Below are positions 9,429 to 53,012 of a stretch of DNA of 53,486 nt, in pieces (within the stretch, counting starts at the first letter, position 1; the number at the start of each line of letters is the position of its first letter). A model generated the notes under the pieces. That model had not been told where the DNA came from. It saw only the letters and a program-made list of their open reading frames with translations, and searched no databases. Where the stretch lies: NCBI GenBank assembly GCA_030425425.1, contig JAUIAO010000042.1, forward strand, positions 1-53,486, given 5' to 3'. The translations under genes were made by a program, and so were the position numbers. This DNA comes from Bacteroidia bacterium. GTDB lineage: Bacteria; Bacteroidota; Bacteroidia; Cytophagales; Cyclobacteriaceae.

Positions 9429-9494
9429 CAAGGATATTATTTTTTATCAGAAACGTCTTAATTCATATTCGTATTAAAGGTGCGTATATTTCGT
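9429..9494 (-). promoter_or_regulatory. PUL operator plus -7 box before the permease operon
   Basis: The minus strand reads ACGAAATATACGCACC-TTTAA-TACGAAT (9494 to 9467), 24 of 28 matches to the consensus of the seven sites by hand count. Thirty bases further is TATCCTTG (9436-9429), a fair Bacteroidota -7 element (TAnnTTTG). The operator ends 157 bp before the permease ATG. No good -33 TTG box is visible, as expected for an activator-dependent promoter. Confidence 0.7.
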
Positions 9495-9548
9495 CAGTGT
9501 ATTTACTAACCATACCAAACTCATGTTTTGCAAAGGAAATGATAGAAT

Positions 9549-12500
9549 CTAGTTGGAGGATTTATCTAAATTTTCCTTGGCGTATTGAGAAGGTGTAACG
9601 CCATATTTAGCTTTAAACACATTGCTGAAATAACGCCGGTCACTGAACCCGACCTGGTAGCATACTTCTGCTACTGGAAGTTTTTGGTTAATAATCAATT
9701 GAACGGCACGTTTCAATCTGAAATCCCGAATGAACTCAATGATCGACATTCCAGTAAGGGACTTCAATTTTTTATAAATGGTAGACTGGCTCATACCCAA
9801 TTCTCGGGCAATAAATTCAGTGGATAAATTCTCAGAATTTAAATTCTCTTCCAGGACTTCAGTCATTTTGCTTAAAAATTCCTGTTCAGGTGATTTTATA
9901 GCGAGCTCAGCAGGTTGCATTAACAGGTCAGTTTTGTATTTTTCCCTGAGCAACATCCTATTATGCAGAATATTTCTTATTCGCGTCTTAAGTACTAATT
10001 CATTGAAAGGTTTGGTTATATAATCATCTGCTCCTGTATCTAAACCCTCTTTTTTGTAAATCAGAGAAGTTCTGGCAGTAAGAATAATAATCGGAAGATG
10101 ACTAGTTCTTGGATCATTTTTCACCTTTCCAGTGAATGTAATACCGTCCATTTCGGGCATCATCACATCACTTAGAATAAGATCAGGAAAATGCTCAAAA
10201 GTCAATGTCAATGCTTCTGCCCCATTCTTCGCTTCAATTATTTTAAAATGAGGACTTAGTAAATCATGAAGATATTTTCTGATCCCATCATTATCTTCTG
10301 CTATTAATATCGAAAGCTCCGATTGATTTGGGAAATTGAACAATTTATCTTCACTTGTCTCAGGTAATTCAATACTCTCATATTGACTAAGTTCTTCACT
10401 ATCCTTAAAATCATTGATTAGAAATTCACTCCTGATATGGTCATTGCCCAAAGGCATTTTTATAGTAAATCTGGTCCATTGATTCAGCTCACTTTCAACT
10501 ATTATTTCCCCACCATGAAGCTTCACTATCTCATAAGTAATGGACAATCCCAATCCATAACCATCCTCTTGCTTAGCATCTTTTTTGTTTTCACTTTGGT
10601 AAAACCTCTTGAAAACATTTTTTATTTGATCCGGAGGAATACCTAAACCAGTGTCTCTTATTACTATAAAAGCGTGTTGGTCATCAACATCTATTTCTAC
10701 ACCTATCTCCCCTCCATTTTTTGAAAATTTGAAAGCATTAGAAATGAGGTTGTACAAAACTTTTTCCATCTCATCTCTATCAAACCATAAGTCAATATGA
10801 TCTGATGGCGAATCGAATTTGTAGTCTATTTGATGAAGATGAGCTGTTTCATCAAATGAAAGAAATATTTCTTTTGTGAATTTAACGATATTTCCTTGTG
10901 CTACTTTTAGACGAGCTTCCCCTAATTCCAGCTTCCTGAAGTCCAATAGTTCGGAAACAAGATTATGCAAGTGAGTGCCGTTTTTTTTCAAATTCTGAAC
11001 CGCATTCAGGCTTACCCTATCCGTTACTCCCCTTTCCATTAATCGATTCACAGATCCTAAAATCAATGTTACGGGAGTTCTGATTTCATGAGAAATGTTT
11101 GTGAAAAACCGCAATTTCACTTCGTGAAGTTCCGTTTCTTTTTCCCTGTTGAGTTGTTCCAACTTGAGTTGACTCTTCATCTTTTCCCAGTAAATGCTGT
11201 AAAGTCTGTAGAAATAAAGCATTATCATGAAAAGTGCCAGATATATGAGATAAGCCCACCATGTTGCCCATAGTGGTTTTGCTATAACAATGGGGATAGA
11301 AGCAGTATTGCCAGAGACCGACCCTTCTTCATTGTATGCTCTCACTTTAAAGGTGTATTTACCTGGAGACAAATTGGTATATGTAGCAGATCTATTACTC
11401 CCATTATCTCTCCAGTCTTTATCAAAATTATCCATTTTGATAGCGTATTGACATGCTTGAGAGGTTGGGAATTTAATAGCTGCAAAATCGAAGGTTATTA
11501 CCCTTTGATCATAATTCAGATTGATTAGATCAGCGTCATTGATCTGACGACTGTAGGGCTTATCAATACCGTTTTCGACTGGCTTATTGAAGACTTTAAA
11601 ATCGGTAAGTACTACTTTAGGAACCTCCGTTTGATGTTTCATTTTGGTTGGCTCAAAAGACACTACTCCATTTAGCCCTCCATAGTAGATGACACCCTGC
11701 TTGCTACGATGTATGGAACTAAATTGGTAACTTCCATTCAAATCTGGAAATTCGTACACCGTATCATTCTTCACATCATATTTAAATACACTCTCAACTG
11801 AATTGATCCAAATGTTCTTCTCTTCATCCTGAAGGATACCACAAATGGTAATGTCATTGAGTTTCTTATAATCATCAAAGCTGTTGATTGTGCCATTAAC
11901 CATATCAAACATTTTCAGACCATTATTCCATGTACCCAGCCATAAGTGTCCGCTGTTGTCATCATGAATACTTGTTATATTTTTGGATGGAAGTGTGAGT
12001 TGGTGCTTGCTGGTAAAGTCATATTGAAACCGTTGGAATGTTCTGGTTTCAGGGTCCAGAAGATTGGCTCCTCCACCAAAAGTTGCTACCCAAATTTTCC
12101 CATCCAAAGCATACTCCAGCTTCATGACATTATTATTACTGATTGTTGTTACATCACGAGAATCATATTTGTAAACAGTAAATTTTTCACTCTTTTCATC
12201 AAAATAATTGAGCCCTCCGGCCCAGGTAGCTATCCAATACCCTCCATTTCTATCTTCTAAAATGTCTCTAATTTCATTTGCAGATAAACTTGCATTATCT
12301 GATAAATCGGATTTATATCTTTTAATTTCTTTAAGATTCTGATCAAGTAAAATCAATCCATTGGAATAAGTACCTAGCCAATACTTGCCATCTTTCCTTT
12401 TTTTGATTGTAACTATCTTCAATCCATTATAAATTTTAGAAACTTTCTCTTTGGCTACATTACCCTTTTGCCCTTCTGACACCCTCTCGTGCACAAATAC

Positions 12501-13631
12501 TCCATTGCCGTCCGTACCCAGAAGTACCTGATTTTCCTCTGCATAAATGGACCAAACGGAGGCCAAATCTTCACCATCTGAATCCCCCATAAATTGTATT
12601 GGATTATGTAGACTTTCGAGGATATAAACACCTTCCCATGCAGATCCCATCCATAAATTTTCGTCACGATCTATGAATACCGCATAGATTGAATTACTCA
12701 ATAATTTAGAGACAGCAGGCTTTTTAAATAGTGGTTGTTCAATCCATTTGCCATCAACTCTCTGAAATACCAACAATCCGTCTCCATCTGTTCCCAAGAA
12801 GAGCTTCTCTGTGTTAACATCAAAAAACACAGCCCTGATATTCGAATTAAAATACGGAGAATTCGTTTCAAAAAAGGTTGAAAGTTTTTTACTCTTTGTA
12901 TCGAAAATTAACAATCCTTCGTTACGAGTTCCGATATAAAGCTGATCACCATCAAAATTGATGCTCTGTATTTTAGGATATGTTGACGGGTTCTCAGTCA
13001 GATATGCTTTGAATGATTCACTACCGGGTGAAAACTGGTACAAACCACCATCAAATGTGCCGCACCAAATATCTCCATATTGATCAGACTTGATGTCTTT
13101 TAACAAAATATCTTCAAACAAGTCACCATAAACTTTGAAATCCCCAGTTTCCTCCCTAAAAAGATTCAAGGCGTGATTCGTGGCTACCCATATTCGACCA
13201 GATTCATCTTCGTGAAGTGAGCGTACATCGTTTGAGGTTAGTAGATTTTCTTGTTCTGTGGATGACTCGAAAACTTGGAAAGAATCACTATTCCGATCAT
13301 AAAGGCTCAGTCCTCCGTCCGTCAATCCTACCCACATCCTATCTTTGGAATCTATCAGTAATGCCATTACATCCTTACCTCCAAGCACATTAGCCGATTT
13401 ATATTCTTTCAACTCATATCCATCAAACCTGTAGAGTCCATTGGTAGTCCCAATCCAAACAAAACCATCCCGATCCTGGTCGATACAAGTTATTGAAGCT
13501 GACTTCAAATCTTCCACTCGGCCAACAGTGCGCACATCATATTGCCCGAATACCGGAGTTGATAATGAAATTATCAGAATGAATAATATTGTGAAAAGTC
13601 TTATTTGTGAGTATTTAAAAATTTCCTCCAT
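9549..13631 (-). CDS. Hybrid two-component system regulator (HTCS)
   Basis: One-protein sensor-regulator of the SusR-replacing HTCS class that controls PULs. In order: a signal peptide (1-29); about 750 residues of two-component propeller repeats (recurring motifs such as DRDGFVWIGT, DSKDRMWVGLTDGG, DENLWMGSAWEG); a Y_Y_Y domain (about 690-770, ending SPGKYTFKVRAYN); one membrane helix (about 787-812); a histidine kinase with phospho-acceptor His848 in SHEIRTP and ATP-binding motifs (NLISNAFKF, DTGLGIP, GYGLGLS); a receiver domain with phospho-Asp1155 in SDVMMPEMDG; and an AraC-type DNA-binding domain at the C-terminus (about 1262-1355). All catalytic residues appear intact. It is the only regulator in the window. 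The AraC output fits the direct-repeat operators found upstream of seven PUL units. The ligand is probably a rhamnogalacturonan oligosaccharide (inference from context). Confidence 0.95.
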   Translation of the reverse strand: MEEIFKYSQIRLFTILFILIISLSTPVFGQYDVRTVGRVEDLKSASITCIDQDRDGFVWIGTTNGLYRFDGYELKEYKSANVLGGKDVMALLIDSKDRMWVGLTDGGLSLYDRNSDSFQVFESSTEQENLLTSNDVRSLHEDESGRIWVATNHALNLFREETGDFKVYGDLFEDILLKDIKSDQYGDIWCGTFDGGLYQFSPGSESFKAYLTENPSTYPKIQSINFDGDQLYIGTRNEGLLIFDTKSKKLSTFFETNSPYFNSNIRAVFFDVNTEKLFLGTDGDGLLVFQRVDGKWIEQPLFKKPAVSKLLSNSIYAVFIDRDENLWMGSAWEGVYILESLHNPIQFMGDSDGEDLASVWSIYAEENQVLLGTDGNGVFVHERVSEGQKGNVAKEKVSKIYNGLKIVTIKKRKDGKYWLGTYSNGLILLDQNLKEIKRYKSDLSDNASLSANEIRDILEDRNGGYWIATWAGGLNYFDEKSEKFTVYKYDSRDVTTISNNNVMKLEYALDGKIWVATFGGGANLLDPETRTFQRFQYDFTSKHQLTLPSKNITSIHDDNSGHLWLGTWNNGLKMFDMVNGTINSFDDYKKLNDITICGILQDEEKNIWINSVESVFKYDVKNDTVYEFPDLNGSYQFSSIHRSKQGVIYYGGLNGVVSFEPTKMKHQTEVPKVVLTDFKVFNKPVENGIDKPYSRQINDADLINLNYDQRVITFDFAAIKFPTSQACQYAIKMDNFDKDWRDNGSNRSATYTNLSPGKYTFKVRAYNEEGSVSGNTASIPIVIAKPLWATWWAYLIYLALFMIMLYFYRLYSIYWEKMKSQLKLEQLNREKETELHEVKLRFFTNISHEIRTPVTLILGSVNRLMERGVTDRVSLNAVQNLKKNGTHLHNLVSELLDFRKLELGEARLKVAQGNIVKFTKEIFLSFDETAHLHQIDYKFDSPSDHIDLWFDRDEMEKVLYNLISNAFKFSKNGGEIGVEIDVDDQHAFIVIRDTGLGIPPDQIKNVFKRFYQSENKKDAKQEDGYGLGLSITYEIVKLHGGEIIVESELNQWTRFTIKMPLGNDHIRSEFLINDFKDSEELSQYESIELPETSEDKLFNFPNQSELSILIAEDNDGIRKYLHDLLSPHFKIIEAKNGAEALTLTFEHFPDLILSDVMMPEMDGITFTGKVKNDPRTSHLPIIILTARTSLIYKKEGLDTGADDYITKPFNELVLKTRIRNILHNRMLLREKYKTDLLMQPAELAIKSPEQEFLSKMTEVLEENLNSENLSTEFIARELGMSQSTIYKKLKSLTGMSIIEFIRDFRLKRAVQLIINQKLPVAEVCYQVGFSDRRYFSNVFKAKYGVTPSQYAKENLDKSSN

Positions 13632-17444: not shown

Positions 17445-17489
17445 TTGTATCTTCATTTAAACCACTTACATTCATATTTTCACTGGTCG

Positions 17490-17868: not shown

Positions 17869-19239
17869 TTAGTTTTCGAGATTGAAGTCAATCACATTCT
17901 CGTTCAGCAATGCTTCATCTCCTTTCATACTGTCCAGCATGACATTCTTTAAGATCACACGCTCAACAGGCTTTTCTTCCTGACCCTGGATTCTGGAGAT
18001 GAACTTTCCTTCTTTTCCGGATACATTGGACATATAAATATTTGAGATTGGTGTCAGCTTCCTTTCATAAGTAGGTACCAAGTCCCTCCATTGATAAAGT
18101 ACATCTGTTTCTATTCCCAATACACCATTTCTTAGCACACCACCATCTACATTTCTCATATAGATATTTTTTACATATCCGCCTCTTCGCTCATTCGTTT
18201 TGATAAATAATAGATGGAAAAACCATGCTTTCTCTCCTATTTCACAGTTTTCCAATAGCACATTCTCCACGCCACCAGAAAGCTCACTACCAATAGCCAT
18301 CAGTTGGTGACCTTGTTTTACTAAACAATTTCTCATCACGACATTTTTAGTTGGAGTATTAAGTCTCCACGCATCCTGATTTCTTCCTGATTTTACCGCA
18401 ACAGCATCATCTCCCTGATCAAAAACACAATCTTCAATTAATACATTCTGACTCATCTCAGGATCTACACCATCATTGTTATGACCATGAGCAATTACCT
18501 TGACTTCTCTAATCGTCACATGTTTTGACATATATGGATGGATCACCCAGAATGGGCTATTAGTAATAGATACACCTTCAAGGAGCACATTTTCGCATCG
18601 ATTGAACTGTATGAATTGGGGTCTCAAATGAGAAGTATCATTGACCATGTTTCGCTCTTCAACCGGACTGTATTCAGAGGCCAATGTGTAGAGCCTTTTA
18701 AGACTATTCATATGAGCAGGTGGTCTACCGAACCATGATTCCCAGGTATCCATTTTCGCCTTTAGCTCTCCCTCTCCGGTAATAGCAATATTCTCACATT
18801 GATATGCATATACTAAAGGCGAATAGTTATAACACTCCATACCCTCCCATGTGGTGTGTACAGCAGGGAGATAATCTTCAGGATCATCAGAAAACAGTAA
18901 AACAGCACCTTTCTCAAGATGCAGGTTAACGTTGCTTTTTAAATGAATTTTACCTGTAAACCACTCTCCCTCAGGTATAACCACCGTTCCACATCCACTG
19001 GCATTTGCCTCACCTATAGCTTGTTTTATTGCTTTTGAAGTAGCTACCTTATCTCCAACCACTGCACCTTTATCAACAATAGATATTTTGGGGCATTCTT
19101 CGAAATTTGGAGATTTTATGGCAGGCATTTCAAATGGAGCCTCTACAACCAACTCATTTATACCAACCTTAGATACTTCTTGAGTGCAAGATGATAGAAT
19201 AATCACAATGGCGATAAAAGCATGACTGATGTTTTTCAT
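17869..19239 (-). CDS. GH28 polygalacturonase / rhamnogalacturonase-like lipoprotein
   Basis: Second GH28 beta-helix enzyme (456 residues), with a lipoprotein signal (LSSC, Cys18). Catalytic blocks are close to the family standard: NNDGVD (about 255), GDDAVAVKSG (about 276), GHQLMAIGSE (about 310). The N-terminal sequence IKQAIGEANASGCGTVVIPEGEW is typical of bacterial exo-acting GH28s. It follows the CE12-type esterase by 132 bp on the same strand and is expected to share its operator at 20833-20898. It probably removes galacturonic acid from oligosaccharides at the cell surface or in the periplasm; exo-action is inferred from similarity of layout, not proven. Confidence 0.92.
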   Translation of the reverse strand: MKNISHAFIAIVIILSSCTQEVSKVGINELVVEAPFEMPAIKSPNFEECPKISIVDKGAVVGDKVATSKAIKQAIGEANASGCGTVVIPEGEWFTGKIHLKSNVNLHLEKGAVLLFSDDPEDYLPAVHTTWEGMECYNYSPLVYAYQCENIAITGEGELKAKMDTWESWFGRPPAHMNSLKRLYTLASEYSPVEERNMVNDTSHLRPQFIQFNRCENVLLEGVSITNSPFWVIHPYMSKHVTIREVKVIAHGHNNDGVDPEMSQNVLIEDCVFDQGDDAVAVKSGRNQDAWRLNTPTKNVVMRNCLVKQGHQLMAIGSELSGGVENVLLENCEIGEKAWFFHLLFIKTNERRGGYVKNIYMRNVDGGVLRNGVLGIETDVLYQWRDLVPTYERKLTPISNIYMSNVSGKEGKFISRIQGQEEKPVERVILKNVMLDSMKGDEALLNENVIDFNLEN

Positions 19240-19371
19240 TTTATAAATGCTGTTAATTTTTCAAATCAAAATAATTCCACAAGATTCATTTACCTATTTA
19301 CTATAAGATTTACCCTTGTGCTTTCAAGCGGCAGATTAAAAATCGAAACTCCGCTCATTGTCAATCTTTAT

Positions 19372-20694
19372 CTAATTTCCATCTGGTTTCAATGTAGAGG
19401 CCTTAATTGACATTGGCCATGCCCAGGTATCGACAGGGTCTGGTTTATTTGGATCAAAGGCCTCAAAATCCTTCTTCAAGTAATTCTTCAATTCGCAATT
19501 AGAATTTACTATTCCGGTAGCTACGCATTTAGCCAGCTGCCATGCACCATAGGTACTAAAATGCGTATTGTCTGCTATTGGCTCATTTTGACCAGGAAAT
19601 GAATTGGCAGCATAGTGCACAAATGCTTGCTTGGAACCCTCCACACCCATGGCTTCAAACAGCTTTTTGCTCATAGCATTAAGATCGATCAAAAAAACGT
19701 CTTCTTTCTTGGCTAATTCTCTCATTGCATCAGGGTATTCTTCCAGGGTATTTTTAATATTTCCATTTGCATCAAAACTACGTCTATTAGTAGAGGTGAC
19801 GAAAACAGGAGTAGCATCATTTTCTCTTGCCAGATTCACGAATTTCATAAGATGCTCATCGTATGTACTGTATGGTTCTACATGTCCACTTCCAGGTTTT
19901 TGATCATTATGAGCAAATTCCATGAATATGAAGTCTCCGGGCTTGATCATAGAAGCAATTTTATCAAATCGTTTCTCCCAAATAAATGACTTAAGCGTCT
20001 CGCCGGATTCAGCGAAATTGGCTACAACCACATTTTTGTTTAGAAATGCAGGAAACATCTGTCCCCAAGAAGCCCACGGTTCTTCTTCCTGATCAACCAC
20101 AGTAGAATTCCCAGCTAAAAATATTGTTGGTAAATCACTCACTGGTGTAATTGTTACTGACCGCACACATGGATGAACACCACCAAACTCCAGAGACAAA
20201 TTAGTGTCCCAATTTACATAAGGGAATTCGCGTGGTTTCAATTTAATACTATCGGATTCATTGATTTTGGCTGAACGAACATTTACAACAAACTCTACTG
20301 TATCGATTTGCTTTGCGCTTAGTTCTTTATTGTAAACCATTAATCGTCTCGACTCGGCTTTGATCGTAATATTTGAAGGTGCATTTTCATCTCCAGAGAT
20401 CACTTGTACGCTATAATTACCTTCAGGAACTTCTGTCCAAAAAATAAATGAACCATCTGAAGTCAGATAGTTCTTTGAAGTTTCAACTTTGCCGGTAACG
20501 CCATATTTCACCCCATTCAAGTTGTATGGCCAAATTGTACTGTGATTGACTTCTATCCCATAAGCGCCAGACTCTCCAAAACTAAAAACCATCTTTTTCT
20601 CTAAATCCGTGTTGCTCTTTATGTGGCAGTCAAGCAAACTGAATACAAAAAAAAGACTAGATATTGTAAATATGTTTAATACTTTCATTTTCAA
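19372..20694 (-). CDS. CE12-type rhamnogalacturonan acetylesterase
   Basis: SGNH-fold esterase that removes acetyl groups from rhamnogalacturonan, opening it to PL11 lyases. Residues 1-23 look like a signal peptide and LLDC could be an unusual lipobox. Residues about 30-180 form a beta-rich N-terminal domain, and the SGNH domain follows. Block I is LAGNSTVVDQ (Ser about 196); Gly-Asn-Ser here replaces the Gly-Asp-Ser of the general family, a change I recall as common in bacterial CE12. Block III is FAHNDQKPGSG and the catalytic Asp/His pair is DNTHFS (His about 377). It is the lead gene of the CE12 - GH28 - broken esterase operon, with the operator 177 bp upstream. Confidence 0.9.
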   Translation of the reverse strand: MKMKVLNIFTISSLFFVFSLLDCHIKSNTDLEKKMVFSFGESGAYGIEVNHSTIWPYNLNGVKYGVTGKVETSKNYLTSDGSFIFWTEVPEGNYSVQVISGDENAPSNITIKAESRRLMVYNKELSAKQIDTVEFVVNVRSAKINESDSIKLKPREFPYVNWDTNLSLEFGGVHPCVRSVTITPVSDLPTIFLAGNSTVVDQEEEPWASWGQMFPAFLNKNVVVANFAESGETLKSFIWEKRFDKIASMIKPGDFIFMEFAHNDQKPGSGHVEPYSTYDEHLMKFVNLARENDATPVFVTSTNRRSFDANGNIKNTLEEYPDAMRELAKKEDVFLIDLNAMSKKLFEAMGVEGSKQAFVHYAANSFPGQNEPIADNTHFSTYGAWQLAKCVATGIVNSNCELKNYLKKDFEAFDPNKPDPVDTWAWPMSIKASTLKPDGN

Positions 20695-20832: not shown

Positions 20833-20898
20833 CAACAATAGATATTTAATCAACTGATGGCATTTCAAGCATTCGTATGTTTTTGGTGGTATTCTCGT
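20833..20898 (-). promoter_or_regulatory. PUL operator plus -7 box before the CE12 operon
   Basis: The minus strand reads ACGAGAATACCACC-N7-TACGAAT (20898 to 20871), the weakest of the seven sites at 18 of 28 matches but with both ACGA ends intact and exact spacing. TATTGTTG follows after exactly 30 bp (20840-20833). The rest of the 410-bp gap 20695-21104 shows no coding sequence. Confidence 0.6.
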
Positions 20899-26529: not shown

Positions 26530-26594
26530 CAATACTAACAGATTAATGAATCATCGTATTTTGTCAATTCAGATTAATGGTGGGTCTTTTTCGG
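26530..26594 (-). promoter_or_regulatory. PUL operator plus -7 box before the first PL11 gene
   Basis: The minus strand reads CCGAAAAAGACCCACC-ATTAA-TCTGAAT (26594 to 26567), 22 of 28 matches. TAGTATTG (26537-26530) follows after 29 bp. The operator ends 127 bp before the ATG. The rest of the 302-bp gap to the next gene holds only the terminator at 26690-26719. Confidence 0.65.
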
Positions 26595-30994: not shown

Positions 30995-31060
30995 TAATAT
31001 TATGAAAATGTTACCCCTGTGCTTATTCATAAACCCGTAATAAAGGTGTGTCAATTTCGT
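30995..31060 (-). promoter_or_regulatory. PUL operator plus -7 box before the 1403-residue protein gene
   Basis: The minus strand reads ACGAAATTGACACACC-TTTAT-TACGGGT (31060 to 31033), 24 of 28 matches. TAATATTA (31002-30995) follows after 30 bp. The operator ends 79 bp before the ATG, the shortest distance of the seven. Confidence 0.7.
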
Positions 31061-38301: not shown

Positions 38302-38365
38302 ATGATTTTGGCACACCTCAAATACGAATAATGATAAAATGAAGAAGGTGTATTGCTTAATTTTG
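38302..38365 (+). promoter_or_regulatory. PUL operator plus -7 box before the first SGNH esterase
   Basis: The only plus-strand copy: ATGATTTTGGCACACC-TCAAA-TACGAAT (38302-38329), 21 of 28 matches. TAATTTTG (38358-38365), a perfect TAnnTTTG box, follows after 28 bp. The operator ends 114 bp before the ATG at 38444. It lies in the divergent gap shared with the TonB operon, but its orientation points to the esterase. Confidence 0.7.
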
Positions 38366-42855: not shown

Positions 42856-45249
42856 TTAATAACCAGGATTCTGGTAATCATTAAATTCATCTACACCATA
42901 TGGAATACCCTCTTCATCAGTAAGCAACTGAAGAAAATCAAGTGGCCATGCTTTGAAATTGTGATATTTACCGAGTTGACCTCTACCATAACCTGTTGCA
43001 CCAATTCCACCAGGACCATTAGTCTCATCTTCCGGATCAACAGGGAAAGGGAAATCAGCTGTTCCGGTGGATTCACTTGGAGCTCCAACAGGGTCTCTAT
43101 AGTATACCCTTTCGTACCATATTCCTGCATTGTGAAGATCTTCATTAGTGATTGCCTCGAAAATGTGCTCTCTAGCCTTTTCATTGTAAATGAAATGAAT
43201 GAATCTTTCCATTTCAGTAGTGGCTGTTGGAGGATAATTTTCCATGGCTGCTTTTGCAGTACCTTGCTGCCATTCAGATCCGTCTACCAGGTTATCGGCT
43301 TCTGTATCATTCAATATTTGCAATGTCGAATTATCCACATTAGCCATATCCACTCCACTTGGATCTAGAATCGCAAGGTCTGTAATTGTTTCTCCTGCTT
43401 TATATGCTGCTCTTCTTCTGATCACATTCAGATCAGGAATAGCTGCGGCTGGTCCATCTCTTCTTCCTAGAGCTTCAGCTCTAATCAGGTAAGTCTCTGC
43501 CAATCGGATCAATGGAATGTCTATTGACCCTCCTCCTCTATCATCAGTTCCCAGACCTCTGTTAGGATCAAAAAACTTACCAGAGCTAAGGAAGGTGATA
43601 GCTGATGCACCTTCAGCATCAGTGTTGTAGCGACGTACAGTAGCCTGATCCGATGGAACGATACGGTATCTAACTGTTCTGTTAGATACATCCGTAACCA
43701 CGGGGTTATCTGGATCGATTGTGATACCAGCCTTTAATCCTGTAACATTGCCCGAACCATCATAATTAAAGTAACCTTCTCCATTTGGACTTCCAGCTAC
43801 CCATCTTGCCAACAACAAGTATGGCTGACTAGCCAGCCAGAGTGAATCTACAGGCTCATCTTTACTGTTTTCAATATACCCAAGACATCTTTGGTCCTGC
43901 TCGATCTTGCTAGTACCAGCTACTACGTCTTCTCCTCCATATCTGCTTGGATATTTAGTTTTTAGAAAGTTGTTATAGAAGTAAGCAGACTCATCTGTCC
44001 AGTCTAATCTAGCAGCACTCGCATTATTTGATTCATATGACATGAAAAATGACTTATAAAATCTTGAATCAGCAGCCCTGTTATTAAACATATCATATGC
44101 CCAGTCCGTAGGATTCATATCTCTAAAAGGTCTCGGCAAAAGTGTTCCTGACCTATCCAGTCCTACATCCAAAACTGTGAAATCTTGATTGAATATATTA
44201 TGGAACTGATTCACATATCTACCATTATATGTCTGGGATCCTTCGTATTGTGCAGACAAAATAATCTCACTAACAAGATCTCTTGAATAAACACTCGTGG
44301 TACCAGGAGAATATGCTGGTGTAGCCCAAAGATCACCAAAATTAGGTGCTAAACCTCCGTACGCAGTTTCTCCAGACTTTTGATCTATTACCATTGATGC
44401 ATAATAAATACTCGAATCCAAATCTGTAGGTACATTGCCTTTGTAGAGCATATCCAGATGTGTTTCAGCACCTTGCCATCCTGCGGCTTGAGCACGATGC
44501 AAATAGATTTTAGCAAGCAAATGCGCGGCTGCCGGTTTTGTAATTCTTCCCAACTCGCTATTAGGATCAGCAATTTCTGGATTTAAAATCTCCACTGCAT
44601 TTCTAAGATCACTAATCATCGATTTGTAAATATCCTCTAAAGAGGACTTTGGAAAGTAGTTAATATCTGAATACGATCTTGGTGCTTCCAATATAAGTGG
44701 CACAGGTCCTAAAACATTCGTCACAAGATAGTAACCATATGCTCTCATGAATAGGATTTCACCTTTTCGGGTTTTTAAACCCTCTTGCTCACTTTCAGTC
44801 AAAAAGTTCTCATAATTATATAAGAACAAATTACACCTTGTGATCGAAGGGTAAACACCTTCTGAAAAACCACCAGATACAGCACCTAATAACAAACGAA
44901 TCTGAAGTGTGACCTGATGTTGGTCATCAGTGGCTGTAGGCCCCCAACTACTAATATCGTATAAGCCAGAAGCTCTTCGATATTGTTCAGCCGTATATGG
45001 ACTTTGGTTAAAAACTTCAATATCATTTCCTCCGGCGAATAATTTATTTCCGTGGTTATAATCAGTCTTAAATCTCAGCAACTGATAATTGGCTGTAACT
45101 AAAGCTTCTAAACCATCTTGTGTGGTATAAAACAAATTATTAACAACAGAAATAGGCTCTTCCTCCAAAAACTCAGGTTTACATGCAGCAAAACCAAAGA
45201 CTAGTAGAATTACAAATATCCTTTTCATATCTTTTAATGTCTTTTTCAT
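42856..45249 (-). CDS. SusD/RagB-family glycan-binding lipoprotein
   Basis: Outer-membrane lipoprotein that captures oligosaccharides and forms the lid over its SusC partner. Lipoprotein signal with FAAC (Cys23), then FLEEEPISVVNNLFYTTQDGLEALVTANYQLLRF, the SusD opening, TPR-like helices (GEILFMRAYGYYLVTNVLGPVPLI; AHLLAKIYLHRAQAAGW) and the late phrase IPLIRLAETYLIRAEALGRRDGP. At 797 residues it is clearly longer than most SusDs (about 500-650); the extra sequence is spread between about 300 and 560. The first ATG (45249) is preceded by AAGATAAGAAG; a second ATG seven codons on is possible. It starts 13 bp after SusC. The substrate is inferred to be rhamnogalacturonan oligosaccharides from the neighbours. 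Confidence 0.95.
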   Translation of the reverse strand: MKKTLKDMKRIFVILLVFGFAACKPEFLEEEPISVVNNLFYTTQDGLEALVTANYQLLRFKTDYNHGNKLFAGGNDIEVFNQSPYTAEQYRRASGLYDISSWGPTATDDQHQVTLQIRLLLGAVSGGFSEGVYPSITRCNLFLYNYENFLTESEQEGLKTRKGEILFMRAYGYYLVTNVLGPVPLILEAPRSYSDINYFPKSSLEDIYKSMISDLRNAVEILNPEIADPNSELGRITKPAAAHLLAKIYLHRAQAAGWQGAETHLDMLYKGNVPTDLDSSIYYASMVIDQKSGETAYGGLAPNFGDLWATPAYSPGTTSVYSRDLVSEIILSAQYEGSQTYNGRYVNQFHNIFNQDFTVLDVGLDRSGTLLPRPFRDMNPTDWAYDMFNNRAADSRFYKSFFMSYESNNASAARLDWTDESAYFYNNFLKTKYPSRYGGEDVVAGTSKIEQDQRCLGYIENSKDEPVDSLWLASQPYLLLARWVAGSPNGEGYFNYDGSGNVTGLKAGITIDPDNPVVTDVSNRTVRYRIVPSDQATVRRYNTDAEGASAITFLSSGKFFDPNRGLGTDDRGGGSIDIPLIRLAETYLIRAEALGRRDGPAAAIPDLNVIRRRAAYKAGETITDLAILDPSGVDMANVDNSTLQILNDTEADNLVDGSEWQQGTAKAAMENYPPTATTEMERFIHFIYNEKAREHIFEAITNEDLHNAGIWYERVYYRDPVGAPSESTGTADFPFPVDPEDETNGPGGIGATGYGRGQLGKYHNFKAWPLDFLQLLTDEEGIPYGVDEFNDYQNPGY

Positions 45250-45262
45250 CTTCTTATCTTAA

Positions 45263-48200
45263 TTATAGACCTAGCCTTACACCAAAAACATAGCTTTGCT
45301 CAATAATCCTGTTGTTATTAAGACCTCCAAGCACTCTATCTCCTTGTGGTTGCCAACCATTAAGGTCATCTGGATTAATTCCTGCCTTGACTACATTTCC
45401 GCCCCAGATGAACGGATTCAAAATTTGACCAAACACTTCTAAACTGCCGACTTTTAAGGTATTCAGTACCTTTTGATCAAAGTTGTATGTCAATGAAATA
45501 TTCCTTACGATGAAAAAAGAACCATCATTAACTCTGGTGCCAGAATGAGCTGTTGTATTCACAGATTGGATTGTTAATGCAGGCCATTGAGCATCTGGAT
45601 TATCTTCTGACCAGTATTCGTCTATGGAAGCCTTCGGCGCATTACCTACATAACCACTACCAAAAACACCTCCAGGGCTCAAATCAGCCCAATACTTTTG
45701 TCCGACTCTTGCATAGATGAATGCACTTAGAGTGAATCCCTTGTAAATGAATGTATTCGTGATTCCTCCGGTCCATTTCGGGTTTGTGGTACCTGTAATC
45801 ACCCGATCTTCGTCTGTAAGTCGGTAGTCACCATTCTGGTCTACTGGTTTCCATTGACCAGGAGCATACTTTATTCCACTAGAATCTGCCCAAATTTCCA
45901 TTTCGGCGAGATCCTCTTCTGTATTTTGCCACAATCCATCTACCTCATAAGTTCTGTATATACTTACCGGATAACCTAAGAATAAGTTTGAACCAGGAAG
46001 ATCCTGACCGGGCTGGATGAGTTTATCTATTTTCTCATTGTTTGTAGCGAAGTTCATGGAGGTTTTCCATGTAAAATCCCGAGTATCAATATTCACAGAA
46101 TTAATAGAAAACTCAAACCCTGTATTTCTAATCTCTGCTATGTTGGCCGTAATTTCAGGATATCCAGTAGTAGCAGGCAGAGGTAAGGTTCTGATCAAAT
46201 TAGTAATATGAGATTGATAATATTCAGCAGAACCGGTAATCCTGTCTTGTAAAAATCCGAAATCCCAACCAAAATTTGTTTGAGCAACTCTTTCCCATGT
46301 TAAATTCTCATTAGGTTGTGATCTTGGCATGTAACCAGCAGCTGGTGTTGCTCCGAAAATATAATCATATTGCACTAACTGACCTGACGACTCATATGGT
46401 CTAACTGATCCCTGATTTCCTGTCTCTCCGTATCCAATTCTCAATTTGGATTGACTGATGATTGGAATATTTTGCATGAAAGGTTCTTCCTCCATTTTCC
46501 ACCCTAAGCTGAAAGATGGGAAGTAATCCCATTTATTTGAACTTCCCTTTGACAATACAGAAGCTCCATCCCATCTTACTGTCCCGGTCAATAGATATTT
46601 ATCTCTGAATGAATAATTCACTCTGACCATATAAGACTCGAGAGTTCTTCTTGAGTAATATGAACTAGTATTGAAAATTGTACCGTTGCCTAGACCGTAC
46701 CATAAATAATTATCAGTTAGTATCCCTGAGCTTGTTCCAGACAATGTTTCATATTTATCATCCTGAGCAGACTGCAGCAAAGTAGCCTTAATACTATGCT
46801 GATCTATTGTTTTATCCACATAAAGAATATTCTCTACCATCCATCTGAAGTTCTTACTTGTCTGCATGGAAGCCCAGGCAGTTGGCTGATCTGCGCCACG
46901 TCGTGTGGTGGATTCGCTACCTTGAAACTGACCTCTACGGTAGTTTTTAATACCGGCTCCAAAATTGACTCTATACTTTAACCAAGGGGTAAAATTGATC
47001 TCACCGTAAAAGTTACCCTGGAAATAATCTCTTATTCTTTTGTCTTCTGTATTGTTTACATCTATCAATGGATTGAAAACAGGCAAACCTGAGTTGTTTC
47101 CTGGAAACGTAATTAACTCTCCTAATGAATCGTAAGGTTGAGCCATGATGTACATTCCCTGTCCAATACCGTAAATATCTTTAGGGCCTGTTGCGCTACC
47201 TGAGCGATATACCGAACCATACAATTGTTCTGAATATGTAGCTGTTATTGAAGATCCAATTTTAATCCAATCTTTCGGTTTGATATCTCCATTGATTCTT
47301 GCCGTATATCTAGAATACCCCTGATTGATCTGTGCTGCTTTGTTATCTAAAAAACCAAAAGACGCATAAAGGTTAGAGTTATCACCACCCGCTGATACTG
47401 AGAGCGTATGGTTTTGTGTCACTCCGGTTCTTGAAAGCAAATCCATCCAATCATATCCCGTGACATTGTCTGGATTATATACTGGTACTGAAGCGGGATA
47501 TCCTGCAACTCTTTCAGCATCATTGGTCGATCTCATTTTTACTATTGAGTATGTCCCTGGATCTTCCCATTCGTAACCATTTCTGATGGCTTGTATTGTG
47601 TGGTAATCATTTTTCCCAAACAATCTGATATCCTCAAATGGATCAGGATAATTGTGTTGATATACTGCGTCACTTGGGTGATTGATAAATGCTTGTCTCG
47701 TACGATCCAAAACATTACCGGCACTTCCCCATTCTGTCAAAGAATTGATCTTATCAAAACTTGTGGTCCCACTGTAATTGATTCTTACACCTTTATTACC
47801 GCTTTTTGTGGTTATTAACACTACTCCGTTCGCGCCTCTCGCACCATAAATGGCCGTAGCTGAAGCATCTTTAAGAATATCAATTGATTTGATGTCATTT
47901 GGATTGATGTCATTTAAATCTCCGAAAAGAACTATACCGTCAACTACATAAAGTACAGGTTGTGATCTATCGATTGATTTGTTACCTCTGATTCTAACGC
48001 TAGATACTTCTCCCGGTCGTCTATTGGTGGTAATATCCACACCGGCAGCTTTTCCCTGCATGGCGTCTACAGCATTCACCACTGGCCGTTCTTGTATTTC
48101 TTCCGCACCTATACTAACCAGGGCACCCGTCACGTCTCTTTTCTTCTGAACACCATATCCAACAACTACTACTTCTTCGAGTGCCTCGATATCAGCTTCC

Positions 48201-48496
48201 AATGCAACATCAATTATAGATTGGTTACCAACTTTAACGGTGGATGCGGCAAATCCAACGAATGAAATTTGCAACGAAGCATCATCGCCTACAGCTAACT
48301 TATAATTACCGTCCAAGTCTGTAATAACTCCATTAGAAGTTCCTACCTCCATTACAGTAGCACCAGGCAATGTTTCACCTGTTTCTGCATCTGTCACCGT
48401 TCCAGTGACCACTTTTTCTTGTCCAAAGGAAAAGGTAGTGAACACAACTACCAGTATCCCTGTGAGACAAGCTCTCAGATTCATCAATTTTCCCAT
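45263..48496 (-). CDS. SusC/RagA-family TonB-dependent transporter
   Basis: 1077-residue outer-membrane importer. Signal peptide (1-25, TFSFGQ); a carboxypeptidase-regulatory-like domain (about 27-105, VVTGTVTDAETGETLPGAT); a TonB-box region (EALEEVVVVGYGVQKKRD); a plug with the SusC signature SIDILKDASATAIYGARGANGVVLITTK; then a barrel with IDRIIEQSYVFGVRLGL-like C-terminal aromatic strands. It is the first gene of the SusC-SusD unit, with the operator and -7 box at 48606-48671 and a 110-base leader. It carries no STN domain, unlike the receptor at 34615. Confidence 0.97.
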   Translation of the reverse strand: MGKLMNLRACLTGILVVVFTTFSFGQEKVVTGTVTDAETGETLPGATVMEVGTSNGVITDLDGNYKLAVGDDASLQISFVGFAASTVKVGNQSIIDVALEADIEALEEVVVVGYGVQKKRDVTGALVSIGAEEIQERPVVNAVDAMQGKAAGVDITTNRRPGEVSSVRIRGNKSIDRSQPVLYVVDGIVLFGDLNDINPNDIKSIDILKDASATAIYGARGANGVVLITTKSGNKGVRINYSGTTSFDKINSLTEWGSAGNVLDRTRQAFINHPSDAVYQHNYPDPFEDIRLFGKNDYHTIQAIRNGYEWEDPGTYSIVKMRSTNDAERVAGYPASVPVYNPDNVTGYDWMDLLSRTGVTQNHTLSVSAGGDNSNLYASFGFLDNKAAQINQGYSRYTARINGDIKPKDWIKIGSSITATYSEQLYGSVYRSGSATGPKDIYGIGQGMYIMAQPYDSLGELITFPGNNSGLPVFNPLIDVNNTEDKRIRDYFQGNFYGEINFTPWLKYRVNFGAGIKNYRRGQFQGSESTTRRGADQPTAWASMQTSKNFRWMVENILYVDKTIDQHSIKATLLQSAQDDKYETLSGTSSGILTDNYLWYGLGNGTIFNTSSYYSRRTLESYMVRVNYSFRDKYLLTGTVRWDGASVLSKGSSNKWDYFPSFSLGWKMEEEPFMQNIPIISQSKLRIGYGETGNQGSVRPYESSGQLVQYDYIFGATPAAGYMPRSQPNENLTWERVAQTNFGWDFGFLQDRITGSAEYYQSHITNLIRTLPLPATTGYPEITANIAEIRNTGFEFSINSVNIDTRDFTWKTSMNFATNNEKIDKLIQPGQDLPGSNLFLGYPVSIYRTYEVDGLWQNTEEDLAEMEIWADSSGIKYAPGQWKPVDQNGDYRLTDEDRVITGTTNPKWTGGITNTFIYKGFTLSAFIYARVGQKYWADLSPGGVFGSGYVGNAPKASIDEYWSEDNPDAQWPALTIQSVNTTAHSGTRVNDGSFFIVRNISLTYNFDQKVLNTLKVGSLEVFGQILNPFIWGGNVVKAGINPDDLNGWQPQGDRVLGGLNNNRIIEQSYVFGVRLGL

Positions 48497-48605: not shown

Positions 48606-48671
48606 CAATATTAGATTAATATTAATAGGACTGATTTCCCCAGATTCGTTGAATAAGTGTGTCATTCTCGT
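48606..48671 (-). promoter_or_regulatory. PUL operator plus -7 box before SusC
   Basis: The minus strand reads ACGAGAATGACACACT-TATTC-AACGAAT (48671 to 48644), 22 of 28 matches. TAATATTG (48613-48606) follows after exactly 30 bp. The operator ends 147 bp before the SusC ATG. The remaining 355-bp gap holds no coding sequence. Confidence 0.75.
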
Positions 48672-48852: not shown

Positions 48853-49020
48853 TCAAGTGTAAGTTGTATAATCTTCGGCCTCAATAATCACCGCTCCATT
48901 GGCATTTGTAGAATATGAGTTTCCAGATGTTTGAGCTCTTACCCCAACAATGAAAATCATTGCTAGTCCAAAAAGAATTGGTCTTTGCCAATTCAATAAT
49001 CTGTGTCGATTTTGTTTCAT
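48853..49020 (-). pseudogene. Truncated secreted-protein stub (signal peptide + start of a CBM)
   Basis: A 55-codon frame: a basic N-terminus, a hydrophobic core (PILFGLAMIFIVGVRAQ, a good signal peptide), then SYSTNANGAVIIEAEDYTTYT and a TGA. The phrase GAVIIEAEDY is the conserved opening of CBM6/CBM35/malectin-like carbohydrate-binding modules; compare GLVVISAESYDS at the start of the 1403-residue protein. The protein stops exactly where the module should begin and nothing downstream continues it in any frame I could follow. It is most likely the head of a lost PUL enzyme. A decayed operator and a TA-initiated -7 position lie upstream at the usual spacing. Confidence 0.65.
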
Positions 49021-49140: not shown

Positions 49141-49198
49141 AAGACAATCAAAAATCCATTATATCGCTCTCAGAGCCTGTTTTTGGATATAAACAACA

Positions 49199-49229
49199 AA
49201 AAAAGGAGCTACGAAAAGTCGCAGCTCCT
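49199..49229 (-). terminator. Intrinsic terminator after the second PL11 gene
   Basis: An 11-bp stem AGGAGCTGCGA / TCGTAGCTCCT (one mismatch) is followed by at least five T residues on the minus strand, 75 bp after the stop codon at 49305. Confidence 0.85.
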
Positions 49230-49304
49230 ATTGACGAGGTTCAAATTGGTAAATATTCCCTAAACTATTTTCCCTTAAAGAAGCCTCTCTTACACATATG
49301 ATCT

Positions 49305-52300
49305 TTATTTATTTATCAGGATTTTCTTCTGATCGATGATCTCTCCTTCTCGCTCAAAATTGATCAGATACAGGCCTGGGCGAATACCTTTCAAATTGAT
49401 TGACTGACTATTACTACCGATTATTACCGTTTTAATCAATTGGCCATCAATTCCCACTACCTTTAAAGTTGACCCACTAGCATTTTTACTCCTTACATTG
49501 ATTATACCATCGCTAACTGGATTAGGATAAATATCAATAGTGGCCTCAATATCATCAGCACTCAACACCACATCTTCGAAATAGAACAAATGAGCTGATG
49601 AAGTATTATTTCTAACGATCACTCTTACAGGATCTCCTGACTCAGTGCTATTTCGCAGAATGGCACAATCGGAGTTGATATTATCAAATACCACTAACCT
49701 ATGTACGCCTTCAGAGTCCTCTATCCTCCATTCGGTAGCTTCATCTGCCAGATTCGTATATGATCCGATCATACTTAGGTACAAGTCATTACTCAAATTC
49801 TTTATCTTATACGCTCCGGTAGCACTACCACTTTCCAAATGCCACATCTGTGCTGATCTCCCACATTCCTGCTGTTCTACAAAGTCCTCTCCGACTCCAA
49901 GGCATAATTGAGAGTGCTCGGCTTTTATCAGCACTGGTACTTCCGTAGCAATATTGATGTTACATGGATCATAACCTGTATTTCCAGAGACACAAACTCC
50001 ACAATCATCTTCGAAGGCTGAACCATTATAAACTCCATTACAGTCAAATAGCTCTGGATTAATATTCTGATCTGTAATAGTTACCTGATCCAGATTTGCA
50101 TAATCACCTCCTGTAGCTGTTAATACTATGGTATTATTGAATCCATGATTTAAGTTCAGGGTGATAGAATCATCCAACCACTCCGCAAAACCTCCTGTAC
50201 CCTGCATGGTGTAATTGAAAGTAGAATCATTTAATGTCATCTGTCCTGTACGAGGATCATTACCTAGTGCATATCTAAAAACTACGCGATAAAGTCCCGC
50301 GGGCTCATCGTTATATAAATATTTTAACTCAAGGCTTCCGGAAGAATTGAAATTCACAAAACCAGTTCCATTATACCCTTCATGATCAGAATCTTTCCAA
50401 CCTCCATCTTCGCTTAGTACTCCAGACTCAGCCTGTACAGTTTTGTATTCTCCTGGTACTACAGAAGTCTCCTCAGAGTAAAAAGACTCTCCCTGACCTA
50501 CCGCTGTTGCTACATAATAATAAGTGTTGGTTTCACTCAAACCAGTATGGTTAAACTCAGGAGACGAGAGTAATTCACTATTCAGCTTTACAAAACCCTC
50601 ACCAGATGTCTCTGACGCATAGACATTATAACCTTCCACTCCATTAGCAGTTGATTCTTCCCAGAAAACCATGGTTTGATCTTTACCTGCTCTTGCCACA
50701 ATCCAGACCGGAGCAGCTGGTCGTGCTGTTGGTCGTGCAAATAAAGTATCGGATGGGCTAGATGTATTACCATCCAAATCTTTTGCAACCACATAATAAT
50801 AATATGAACTATCCAGGATGATGGTCTCATCACTGAAAAATGCATCCGTGATGCCTTGCTCTAAAACTTCGAAATTGTCATTGGTACTCACAGAACGATA
50901 AATCATGTAAGAATCAAAATCAGACTCATAGTTCATTACCCAGCTTAATTCTACTGCAGATGTATCCCATTCCAGAGTTAAATCACTTGGAGGTGAAGGT
51001 GGTATGGTTGATTTGTCATCAAACATCCCCGTACCCAAATAAAAGCTTGGATGTGGAGGCTGATTATAACCTACATTCTGCCACGCTATAGCCTCCCTAT
51101 ATTGCCGATCCTGCATAAGGGTGACAAGCTTGTATTCTGTTGGTATGTTTGTAGTATAAATTCTCAGAGCTGAATTATCCTCTAATCTCCACATTACTTC
51201 TTCTCTCCAGTCACCTAAGATATCTGCCTGTAATGCAGGCGTCGATTTCGTACTGTTATTTGAAGAACATCCAGTTGCCTCGAGCAATACTTCTTGCTCT
51301 TGTGTCTGATAATTCCATTTTCTTACTGAAATATTGTCCATCAGCTCTCTGCTAAGATCTCCGTCCCACCAACATAAAAAGTTCACTGATGGATTACCGC
51401 TAGTTACTACCAAGTTAGTTGCGCTTCTTACCTGATCTCTATACCACCAGGTCTCAGCTCCATAATTATTAGGATCAATATCACCAGCTACAGCTCTACC
51501 TACATCGGCATTTCCAGATTGCCAGAGTACCTCTCCTGATTTTCCATCTTTAAGTGCAACACCCGGATTATGTGTACCTTCATGAGGTCCAAAAATTTCC
51601 AAGCCGTCTCTTTCAGGAATCAAATCTGTAACGTGTAGAGCATCTCCATGCCCTAATCCAGTGGTCCAAAGCCCATTTCCATCATGATCAACTACCATTG
51701 CTCCGAAAATGATTTCATCTTTACCATCTCCATCCACATCAGCTACACTTAACTGGTGATTACCCTGTCCTTCATAATTACTTAAGCCATTAATTTTCGT
51801 ATCAAAAATCCATTCTTGATCAAGTTCACCACCTACAAATCGGTAGGCCACCAAAACTGTTCGTGTGTAATATCCTCTCGCCATCATGAGATATGGATGT
51901 ACTCCGTCAAAATAAGCTATTGCAGCGTTGAATCTATCTACTCTGTTTCCATAGCTATCTCCCCATGCAGACACATCACCTCTGGCAGGGTTATAATTAA
52001 TGGTATGCAATATGTTTCCCGTTTGTCCGCTAAAAACAGTTAAAAACTCAGGGCCAGAAAGCACGTATCCACTCCCATTTCGATAATCTGCATTTTCGTC
52101 TCCGATAATTGTTCCAGCATTGTCCGTAGTACCATCTGCTGTTTTACATGCTACTTCAGCTATACCATCTCCATCCAAATCATATACCATAAACTGGGTG
52201 TAGTGTGCACCAGATCGGATGTTAATTCCCAGATTAATCTTCCACATGCTAGTACCGTCAAACTCTAACCCCTCCAGAATTGTAGGGCCTGTGTAGCCAC

Positions 52301-52868
52301 TTTGAGAGTTATCTTTTGAATTGGATGGGGACCATTTCAATACGATTTCTAGCTCTCCATCACCATCCAAATCAGCTACACTGGCATCATTGGCAGAGTA
52401 GGTGTAGGCATTTCCATCCGGCGTAGTACCACCACTTGGGATATTCAATGAAACTTCCAGGTATTCCTGATCCCAGGTAGCAACTGTCTTCGATGCAGGT
52501 TGATCTTGCCCATCAAGTACCGGAACGACATAGTATTCGTTGGATGCTGATGTATTGGCTGTTGCGTCTAAATAGTTCGTTGAGTTGACTATCAAGCCGT
52601 CATTCAATTTTGTTGGCGAACCTTGATCAGTAATCCTATAAATGTCAAAACCGATATCTGTTGGATCTGTAGTTAATAGCGCCCATGATATGTAAATGCC
52701 ACCATCAGCATTTAGTGCCACCACCGATCGATTGATATTGTCTACATCTGTCTGACCAATAGCAATGTTGGAAATGAATAACATCAACGCCAATGAAAGC
52801 ATCTTGTTAGTCTTGTTCAGTAAATTGAATAATTTCATATCGTTTCTTCTACGTCTATCTTTTCTCAT
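49305..52868 (-). CDS. PL11 rhamnogalacturonan lyase with FN3, CBM35-like and trefoil domains (T9SS)
   Basis: Second PL11 lyase (1187 residues). The catalytic propeller (about 45-610) is closely similar to the 22955 enzyme, with the same phrases IRSGAHYTQFMVYDLD, EVACKTADGT, GYYTRTVL and AWQNVGYNQPPHPSFYLG, and calcium-type loops DLDGDGELE, DLDGDGIAE and DVDGDGKDE. The accessory half is different: two fibronectin type III domains (about 625-715, 720-805), a CBM35-like module (about 808-935, VQAESGVLSEDGGW), a Cys-rich linker (DCNGVYNGSAFEDDCGVC), a ricin-type trefoil (about 975-1095) and a T9SS domain (about 1115-1187). The first ATG gives an Arg-rich start (MRKDRRRRND); the in-frame ATG at 52838 (MKLFNLLNK) may be the real one. 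Own operator and terminator. Confidence 0.94.
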   Translation of the reverse strand: MRKDRRRRNDMKLFNLLNKTNKMLSLALMLFISNIAIGQTDVDNINRSVVALNADGGIYISWALLTTDPTDIGFDIYRITDQGSPTKLNDGLIVNSTNYLDATANTSASNEYYVVPVLDGQDQPASKTVATWDQEYLEVSLNIPSGGTTPDGNAYTYSANDASVADLDGDGELEIVLKWSPSNSKDNSQSGYTGPTILEGLEFDGTSMWKINLGINIRSGAHYTQFMVYDLDGDGIAEVACKTADGTTDNAGTIIGDENADYRNGSGYVLSGPEFLTVFSGQTGNILHTINYNPARGDVSAWGDSYGNRVDRFNAAIAYFDGVHPYLMMARGYYTRTVLVAYRFVGGELDQEWIFDTKINGLSNYEGQGNHQLSVADVDGDGKDEIIFGAMVVDHDGNGLWTTGLGHGDALHVTDLIPERDGLEIFGPHEGTHNPGVALKDGKSGEVLWQSGNADVGRAVAGDIDPNNYGAETWWYRDQVRSATNLVVTSGNPSVNFLCWWDGDLSRELMDNISVRKWNYQTQEQEVLLEATGCSSNNSTKSTPALQADILGDWREEVMWRLEDNSALRIYTTNIPTEYKLVTLMQDRQYREAIAWQNVGYNQPPHPSFYLGTGMFDDKSTIPPSPPSDLTLEWDTSAVELSWVMNYESDFDSYMIYRSVSTNDNFEVLEQGITDAFFSDETIILDSSYYYYVVAKDLDGNTSSPSDTLFARPTARPAAPVWIVARAGKDQTMVFWEESTANGVEGYNVYASETSGEGFVKLNSELLSSPEFNHTGLSETNTYYYVATAVGQGESFYSEETSVVPGEYKTVQAESGVLSEDGGWKDSDHEGYNGTGFVNFNSSGSLELKYLYNDEPAGLYRVVFRYALGNDPRTGQMTLNDSTFNYTMQGTGGFAEWLDDSITLNLNHGFNNTIVLTATGGDYANLDQVTITDQNINPELFDCNGVYNGSAFEDDCGVCVSGNTGYDPCNINIATEVPVLIKAEHSQLCLGVGEDFVEQQECGRSAQMWHLESGSATGAYKIKNLSNDLYLSMIGSYTNLADEATEWRIEDSEGVHRLVVFDNINSDCAILRNSTESGDPVRVIVRNNTSSAHLFYFEDVVLSADDIEATIDIYPNPVSDGIINVRSKNASGSTLKVVGIDGQLIKTVIIGSNSQSINLKGIRPGLYLINFEREGEIIDQKKILINK

Positions 52869-52946
52869 CGTAAACCCAGATTAATTCGGCCTGTTATAAC
52901 AATGGATATTTCCATACCCAGTCGAATCAAAAGATTGTTAGCAATA

Positions 52947-53012
52947 CAAGGATATTTATTCTGCTGAAAATATGAACTTACCAGATTCGTAAGTTTGGGG
53001 TGTCATTTTCGT
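52947..53012 (-). promoter_or_regulatory. PUL operator plus -7 box before the second PL11 gene
   Basis: The minus strand reads ACGAAAATGACACCCC-AAACT-TACGAAT (53012 to 52985), 22 of 28 matches. TATCCTTG (52954-52947), the same octamer as before the permease, follows after exactly 30 bp. The operator ends 117 bp before the first possible ATG. Confidence 0.72.

Follow-up and report, generated by a model that had tools for sequence, protein, structure and literature searches.

A predicted direct-repeat operator at a fixed distance from the -7 box in a putative rhamnogalacturonan locus of Cyclobacteriaceae

Introduction

Which protein reads a 28-bp element that stands before seven transcription units of one polysaccharide locus is the question raised by the DNA considered here, a stretch of 53,486 nucleotides (the window) from contig JAUIAO010000042.1 of a Bacteroidia bacterium of the family Cyclobacteriaceae (GenBank assembly GCA_030425425.1). 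The window encodes a hybrid two-component regulator (HTCS) at 9549-13631, and, judged by sequence, the 28-mer is very probably the operator of this HTCS and would act as an activator site. The element keeps a nearly constant distance to the -7 box of the promoters, is confined to a handful of places in the genome and follows the HTCS through related genomes.

The seven sites of the window

The seven sites lie at the coordinates and on the strands given in the initial annotation, all oriented with transcription and outside long open reading frames (ORFs; Table 1), and all fall within the 11% of the window that is outside ORFs of at least 150 aa. The positions therefore stand, and the match counts are revised: the 18 to 24 of 28 consensus letters reported before were counted otherwise, and the recount gives 20, 22, 20, 19, 17, 18 and 18 of 23 specified letters. 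The core pattern ACGAA-N5-CNCNCC-N5-TACGAAT, with at most three mismatches, finds exactly these seven sites in the window, where 0.27 are expected by chance and 100 shuffles gave a maximum of 2.

A matrix built from the seven sites returns the same seven as the top seven among about 107,000 window positions, with 34.3 to 26.0 bits and the next candidate at 15.4, and in leave-one-out tests every one of them outscores all non-sites. The leave-one-out margins are narrow for 20871 (16.6 versus 15.4 bits) and 38302 (18.2 versus 16.8 bits), and 26567 scores 18.6 bits. Since the top score in ten random Markov windows is 18.7 bits, these three scores are singly not beyond chance, and the case for the three sites owes as much to context as to score.

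The region upstream of the HTCS gene itself reaches a best score of 5.8 bits, with no sign of autoregulation through the 28-bp motif. A divergent operon at 31185-38191, which encodes a TonB-dependent receptor (with a weak FecR_C match, below cut-off) and a DUF4249 protein, is conserved in a relative of another genus (G065, described below); no site is found in its own direction (best -4.9 bits).

Boxes of the 28-mer

Over 19 sites from this genome and two relatives, conservation starts at position 1 and ends at position 28. The conserved boxes are A1 (ACGA), B1 (C11, C13, C15 and C16) and A2 (TACGAAT), and positions 17-21 are weak. The 22-bp period described in the initial annotation is sharp, as in the 19 sites positions 1-6 recur at +22 with 70% identity, whereas the 21 other shifts between 14 and 35 give 9-41%, and the element has the form of HTCS operators, direct repeats with about two helical turns between sites. 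Two further layouts were considered and rejected. A complete second half-site is not seen, with B1 recurring at +22 with 27% identity and at other shifts with 14-32%, nor is a palindromic operator of the LacI type, with 5-7 of 23 consensus letters matched on the opposite strand of the seven sites.

The limits of the conserved block also bear on the idea that the similarity is a functionless leftover of duplicated stretches of promoter or gene. In favour of this idea, the PL11 genes of the locus are paralogs of each other, and so are its GDSL esterases. However, conservation drops outside positions 1-28, where no position exceeds 0.33 bits among the 12 that come before or 0.49 bits among the 24 that follow, the site stands before unrelated genes, and it is kept in another genus; such an origin is extremely improbable.

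Spacing to the -7 box

The octamer TAnnnTTG starts 28-30 bp after the site in six of the seven window sites, and the seventh (31033) has TAATATTA at 30, so that the distances of the initial annotation (28, 29 or 30 bp, with 30 in five cases) hold, six of them with the strict octamer. The same distance is found in sites that did not contribute to the matrix. Among the 12 held-out sites of at least 20 bits, picked by score alone (next hit 16.7 bits), 11 have TAnnnTTG at 28-30 bp. An earlier count used 22 promoters, 15 of them held-out sites selected by score and by lying before a gene, including three weak sites of G001, a genome of the same genus; the box is present at 28-30 bp in 11 of the 15 and in 17 of the 22. 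Elsewhere in the 22 promoters (offsets 0-25 and 36-71) it occurs in 0 of 1364 cases, and letter-shuffled promoters carry it at 28-30 in 0.5%. The corresponding binomial figure of 7.6e-23 overstates the case, because orthologous promoters are not independent. The spacing is the same in both genera at two promoters (28 before the esterase and 29 before one PL11 gene) and varies by one before SusC and GH105.

Four hits of at least 12.5 bits lie outside the set of 15, namely G001 19297 (+, 13.1 bits) and G065 34476 (+, 14.7), 31895 (+, 13.2) and 2812 (-, 13.0). Among the 14 hits of 12.5 to 16.7 bits in the regions scanned, G065 31895 is the sole one with a box at 28-30 bp. This hit (L195:11895-11922, +) has TAGATTTG at 29 bp and points, antisense, into the 3' end of the HTCS gene; it is either a chance match or an antisense promoter.

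Rigid spacing to a -7 box is also what would be expected if the 28-mer were no operator but part of an extended promoter that a dedicated sigma factor recognises. Sigma factors, however, are not known to read three boxes so far upstream, in an element that only 3 of 196 family genomes have several times. The octamer TAnnnTTG, moreover, is a variation of the sigma-A box TAnnTTTG, which in Flavobacterium psychrophilum lies at -12 to -5 (PMC9723704), and the promoters carry the sigma-A type box in this relaxed form. A dedicated sigma factor is therefore very unlikely. Taking the octamer as -12 to -5, as in F. psychrophilum, the 28-mer would be located at about -70 to -41, in agreement with the -40 to -70 estimated in the initial annotation.

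Search of the whole genome

A model built from the seven window sites (R1) was run over the whole 5.85-Mb genome, and because only 150 of 1660 first-look candidates were scored, weak genomic sites may have been missed. At E ≤ 10 it returns eight matches, the seven window sites and G000:C36:95470-95497. The eighth site lies 67 bp before an operon-like row of GH88, GH2 and GDSL esterase genes (Pfam), with a rhamnosidase gene further on, and has a -7 box at 29 bp. The substrates of GH88/GH105 enzymes are products of lyases such as PL11. Spread of the motif into unrelated regions, the concern raised in the initial annotation, did not appear among the scored candidates, as the only extra match precedes another rhamnogalacturonan-type operon. 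Six of the eight hits precede SusC, PL11 (two), GDSL esterase (two) or GH88 genes, and the other two precede a permease-like gene and the gene of a 1403-aa protein; the sites thus stand before susCD and enzyme operons of one glycan pathway.

No comparable site is found in six other HTCS loci of the genome (best scores 8.4 to 16.5 bits, the latter at L041:3147), and two 20-kb stretches with PL11 genes of contig C15 reach no more than 10.5 and 10.2 bits. The absence of the motif from these PL11 genes indicates that it follows the regulator and not the enzyme family. PL11 genes without the motif are those of L180 (G000:C15:155001-175000) and G000:C15:28376-30121, with identities of 63%, 45% and 35%, which suggests a second rhamnogalacturonan system under other control.

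The same geometry of element and box was tried in the six other HTCS loci, four of which have no candidate pair, while C115 has weak candidates only (12 of 23 letters) and C38 has one pair (18 of 23). In the latter (L040, G000:C38), the promoters upstream of the ORFs at 921-4028 (-) and 5763-7214 (-) share TACCAAA(A/G)TGGAATAAAAGT 28-29 bp before TAnnnTTG, and the shared element is possibly another HTCS operator with the same spacing.

Relatives and the family survey

Orthologs of the HTCS are found in G065, from another genus of the family (63% identical), in G001 (58%) and in G104 (44%); in G002-G005 the best HTCS match is 35-38% identical among the matches listed. The R1 model, which was trained on the window only, finds five hits in G065 and two in G001, each no more than about 30 kb away from the HTCS ortholog. 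It finds none at E ≤ 10 in G005, G063 and G104, and none at E ≤ 1 in G002-G005. When the window matrix is scanned over 80 kb around each HTCS ortholog, G065 has seven sites of at least 21 bits, before PL11, SusC, GH105, an esterase, the homolog of the 1403-aa protein, a second PL11 (64% identical) and a LacI-family gene. In G001 there are four sites of at least 20 bits, before SusC, GH105, a 320-aa protein with 33% identity to a portion of the 1403-aa protein, and a 151-aa ORF after which comes a LacI gene. The next best scores in the two scans are 14.8 and 14.7 bits. The site is thus kept before orthologs of SusC, both PL11 enzymes, the esterase, the 1403-aa protein and GH105 in G065, and of SusC and GH105 in G001. 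GH105 here denotes the counterpart of the GH88 gene on C36; the genes of the C36 row lie in the HTCS locus in both relatives, which explains the eighth, unlinked site.

A second model (R2) was made from 19 sites, leaving out the three weak G001 sites, and was run over 196 family genomes with 38 candidates scored per genome. At E ≤ 0.1 it gives seven hits (of the eight known) in the genome of the window, four in G001 and six in G065, one weak hit each in four other genomes, and none in 189. Hits in the first three are expected, as R2 was trained on them, and the result is the near-absence elsewhere. An HTCS at least 58% identical is present in the same three of the 196 genomes, and four more have an HTCS of 38-44% identity and no hit. 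Several sites therefore occur only in the three genomes with the closest HTCS. The four single weak hits (E 0.03-0.09) were discarded, with three inside ORFs and none of the four with a box within 50 bp, and a 16.7-bit candidate beside the HTCS gene of G104, without a strict box, was not counted.

The site precedes the LacI-family gene in G065 (L196:10812-10839), and in G001 (L178:16476-16503) it precedes the 151-aa ORF, which has a weak lipoprotein match, and then the LacI gene; the HTCS may control this second regulator as well in the two relatives. Conversely, the site could be the operator of a different regulator whose gene lies elsewhere, for example a LacI-type protein or a stand-alone one of AraC type that answers to galacturonate or rhamnose. 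The LacI genes of both loci, the many other HTCS-like proteins of the genome and five window ORFs without Pfam match leave some room for this, but the site is a direct repeat and no palindrome (5-7 of 23 letters on the other strand), no LacI protein is found among the 25 window ORFs scanned, several sites occur only alongside an HTCS ortholog of at least 58% identity, and the G065 LacI gene carries a site itself, as a target would. Such a regulator is unlikely, and assignment to the HTCS at 9549-13631, as an AraC-type tandem site, is the best reading, as first proposed: across 196 genomes the motif goes with the HTCS ortholog, and in two relatives it stands before orthologous genes.

The regulator and the genes of the locus

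Pfam scans covered the 25 window ORFs of at least 150 aa. The HTCS, taken initially for the only AraC-type regulator here, is the only helix-turn-helix (HTH) protein among them, with five of the 25 lacking a Pfam match. Among twelve shorter ORFs (45-149 aa) outside the main genes, inspection by eye alone showed none that looked like a regulator; one, at 48853-49020, has 55 codons, a signal-like start and NANGAVIIEAEDYT, and is perhaps the remnant of a larger exported protein. The HTCS has sensor, histidine kinase, receiver and AraC HTH in one chain by Pfam, with a sensor that is presumably periplasmic, and its receiver-HTH part matches PDB 12aw (1.7e-58). HTCS relatives of 24-37% identity in the best segment are encoded in at least 80 loci. 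The S/CHIP motif, conserved in HTCS receivers (PMC11253607), reads SHLP in this HTCS and SHIP in the G065, G001 and G104 orthologs. The two HTH segments are each closely alike among the three HTCSs of motif-bearing genomes (MSQS..YKKLK.LTG and DRRYFS.VFK.KYG) and differ in paralogs, a likeness that would equally follow from overall kinship.

By Pfam the window encodes two PL11 and two GH28 enzymes, SusC, SusD and three GDSL/SGNH esterases, and from this gene content the target of the locus is probably rhamnogalacturonan I. The 1403-aa protein has a type IX secretion (T9SS) tail and no other family, and the permease-like product is matched by the NCBIfam cytosine permease model below its cut-off, with no Pfam match. 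The CE12 label given initially to the esterase at 19372-20694 is confirmed as far as a GDSL esterase, while Pfam does not give CE12.

Table 1. Predicted operators and main genes of the window (octamer distances counted from the end of the site)
Feature	Positions	Strand	Details
Predicted operator before SusC (45263-48496)	48644..48671	-	octamer TAnnnTTG 48606-48613, 30 bp on; orthologous sites before SusC in G065 and G001
Predicted operator before PL11 lyase (49305-52868)	52985..53012	-	octamer 52947-52954, 30 bp on; orthologous site in G065
Predicted operator before 1403-aa protein (26743-30954)	31033..31060	-	TAATATTA at 30995-31002, 30 bp on; site of G065 homolog has TAATATTG at 30
Predicted operator before permease-like gene (7919-9310)	9467..9494	-	octamer 9429-9436, 30 bp on
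Predicted operator before GDSL esterase (19372-20694) and GH28 (17869-19239)	20871..20898	-	octamer 20833-20840, 30 bp on; weakest site
Predicted operator before PL11 lyase (22955-26440)	26567..26594	-	octamer 26530-26537, 29 bp on; orthologous G065 site also 29 bp
Predicted operator before GDSL/SGNH esterase (38444-40390)	38302..38329	+	octamer 38358-38365, 28 bp on; orthologous G065 site 28 bp, same TAATTTTG
Hybrid two-component regulator (HTCS)	9549..13631	-	Pfam: propeller repeats, Y_Y_Y, HisKA, HATPase, receiver, AraC-type HTH; proposed binder
PL11 rhamnogalacturonan lyase with T9SS tail	22955..26440	-	Pfam RGL11_C, 759.5 bits
PL11 rhamnogalacturonan lyase with T9SS tail	49305..52868	-	Pfam RGL11_C, 773.1 bits
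SusC (45263-48496) and SusD (42856-45249)	42856..48496	-	Pfam Plug, SusD_RagB
GDSL esterase (19372-20694) and GH28 (17869-19239)	17869..20694	-	Pfam

Proposed mechanism

In the proposed mechanism, the periplasmic propeller of the HTCS would sense rhamnogalacturonan fragments and its kinase would phosphorylate the receiver, upon which two AraC-type domains would bind head to tail with the 22-bp period. The distal domain would read A1 ACGAA (1-5) and B1 CNCNCC (11-16), and the proximal one mainly A2 TACGAAT (22-28). With the 28-mer at about -70 to -41, the proximal subunit could contact RNA polymerase and activate a promoter whose -7 box is of the sigma-A type.

Several points weigh against this assignment. 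The motif co-occurs with the HTCS but equally with the rest of the locus, only three genomes carry a clear case, and the genome searches scored only 150 or 38 candidates per genome. One of the 12 strong held-out sites, G001 38529, is without a strict -7 box and has TACCTTAG at 30, and 13 of 14 hits of 12.5 to 16.7 bits in the seven regions scanned are without one. The G065 GH105 site lies inside an ORF as mechanically called, and a later start codon must be assumed. Finally, positions 33-38, where a second B box would be expected, are not conserved (none above 0.49 bits), and no full two-repeat site is seen. Because of this, and because B1 has no repeat at +22, it seems that two boxes are read by one subunit and a single box by the subunit nearer the promoter.

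If the operator of the HTCS is as predicted, the locus offers a testable rhamnogalacturonan regulon with one regulator and at least eight promoters, one of them unlinked, which stays intact although one operon lies apart from its regulator. The fixed operator-to-promoter geometry can be tried on other HTCS loci. A wider and more doubtful idea, offered tentatively, is that HTCS operators form a promoter code, in which an asymmetric A1-B1-A2 site without a second B box is held rigidly 28-30 bp from a sigma-A type -7 box and the spacing is inherited promoter by promoter; if it were general, the -7 box could serve searches as an anchor, and the operators of many uncharacterised HTCSs would become readable from sequence.

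Comparison with known systems

In Escherichia coli, the I1-I2 site of AraC consists of two head-to-tail half-sites about two turns apart beside a promoter. The predicted operator shares this tandem arrangement, while AraC, unlike the HTCS, is a soluble one-component sensor.

The initial annotation knew of no published operator of this form for a rhamnogalacturonan HTCS, a statement overtaken by two reports. Ravcheev in 2013 predicted operators for 16 HTCSs of Bacteroides thetaiotaomicron, every one of them a direct repeat and the distance 21 bp on average, and two rhamnogalacturonan regulons with distant members are among these predictions (PMC3878776). In 2024, electrophoretic mobility shift assays (EMSA) showed that the receiver-AraC part of BT4124, a rhamnogalacturonan HTCS, binds the promoter of bt4114 (susCD) (PMC11253607); that binding is experimental, whereas the case presented here is built from sequence. 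Among matches listed in titles and abstract openings, with most subscription journals not covered, neither an operator for a rhamnogalacturonan HTCS outside Bacteroides nor a fixed distance from an HTCS operator to the -7 box is announced.

The closest counterparts are HTCS_Rgu-1 and HTCS_Rgu-2 of B. thetaiotaomicron (BT4111/BT4124 and BT4178/BT4182), with predicted direct repeats of 12+9+12 and 14+6+14 before operons of rhamnogalacturonan loci, distant members included (PMC3878776). Compared by repeat layout and not by letters, the element described here differs in its 22-bp period, in a second B box that is not conserved and in its organism. HTCS_Man of the same species has 16-bp sites and a spacer of 5 bp, a layout that resembles A1-B1 (1-16) and N5 here, but has two 16-bp repeats, of which the second is reduced to A2 in this locus (PMC3878776). 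The predicted operator belongs to a known kind of switch and is set apart by its asymmetric three-box anatomy; the rigid promoter spacing and the absent fourth box are the parts most worth testing further.

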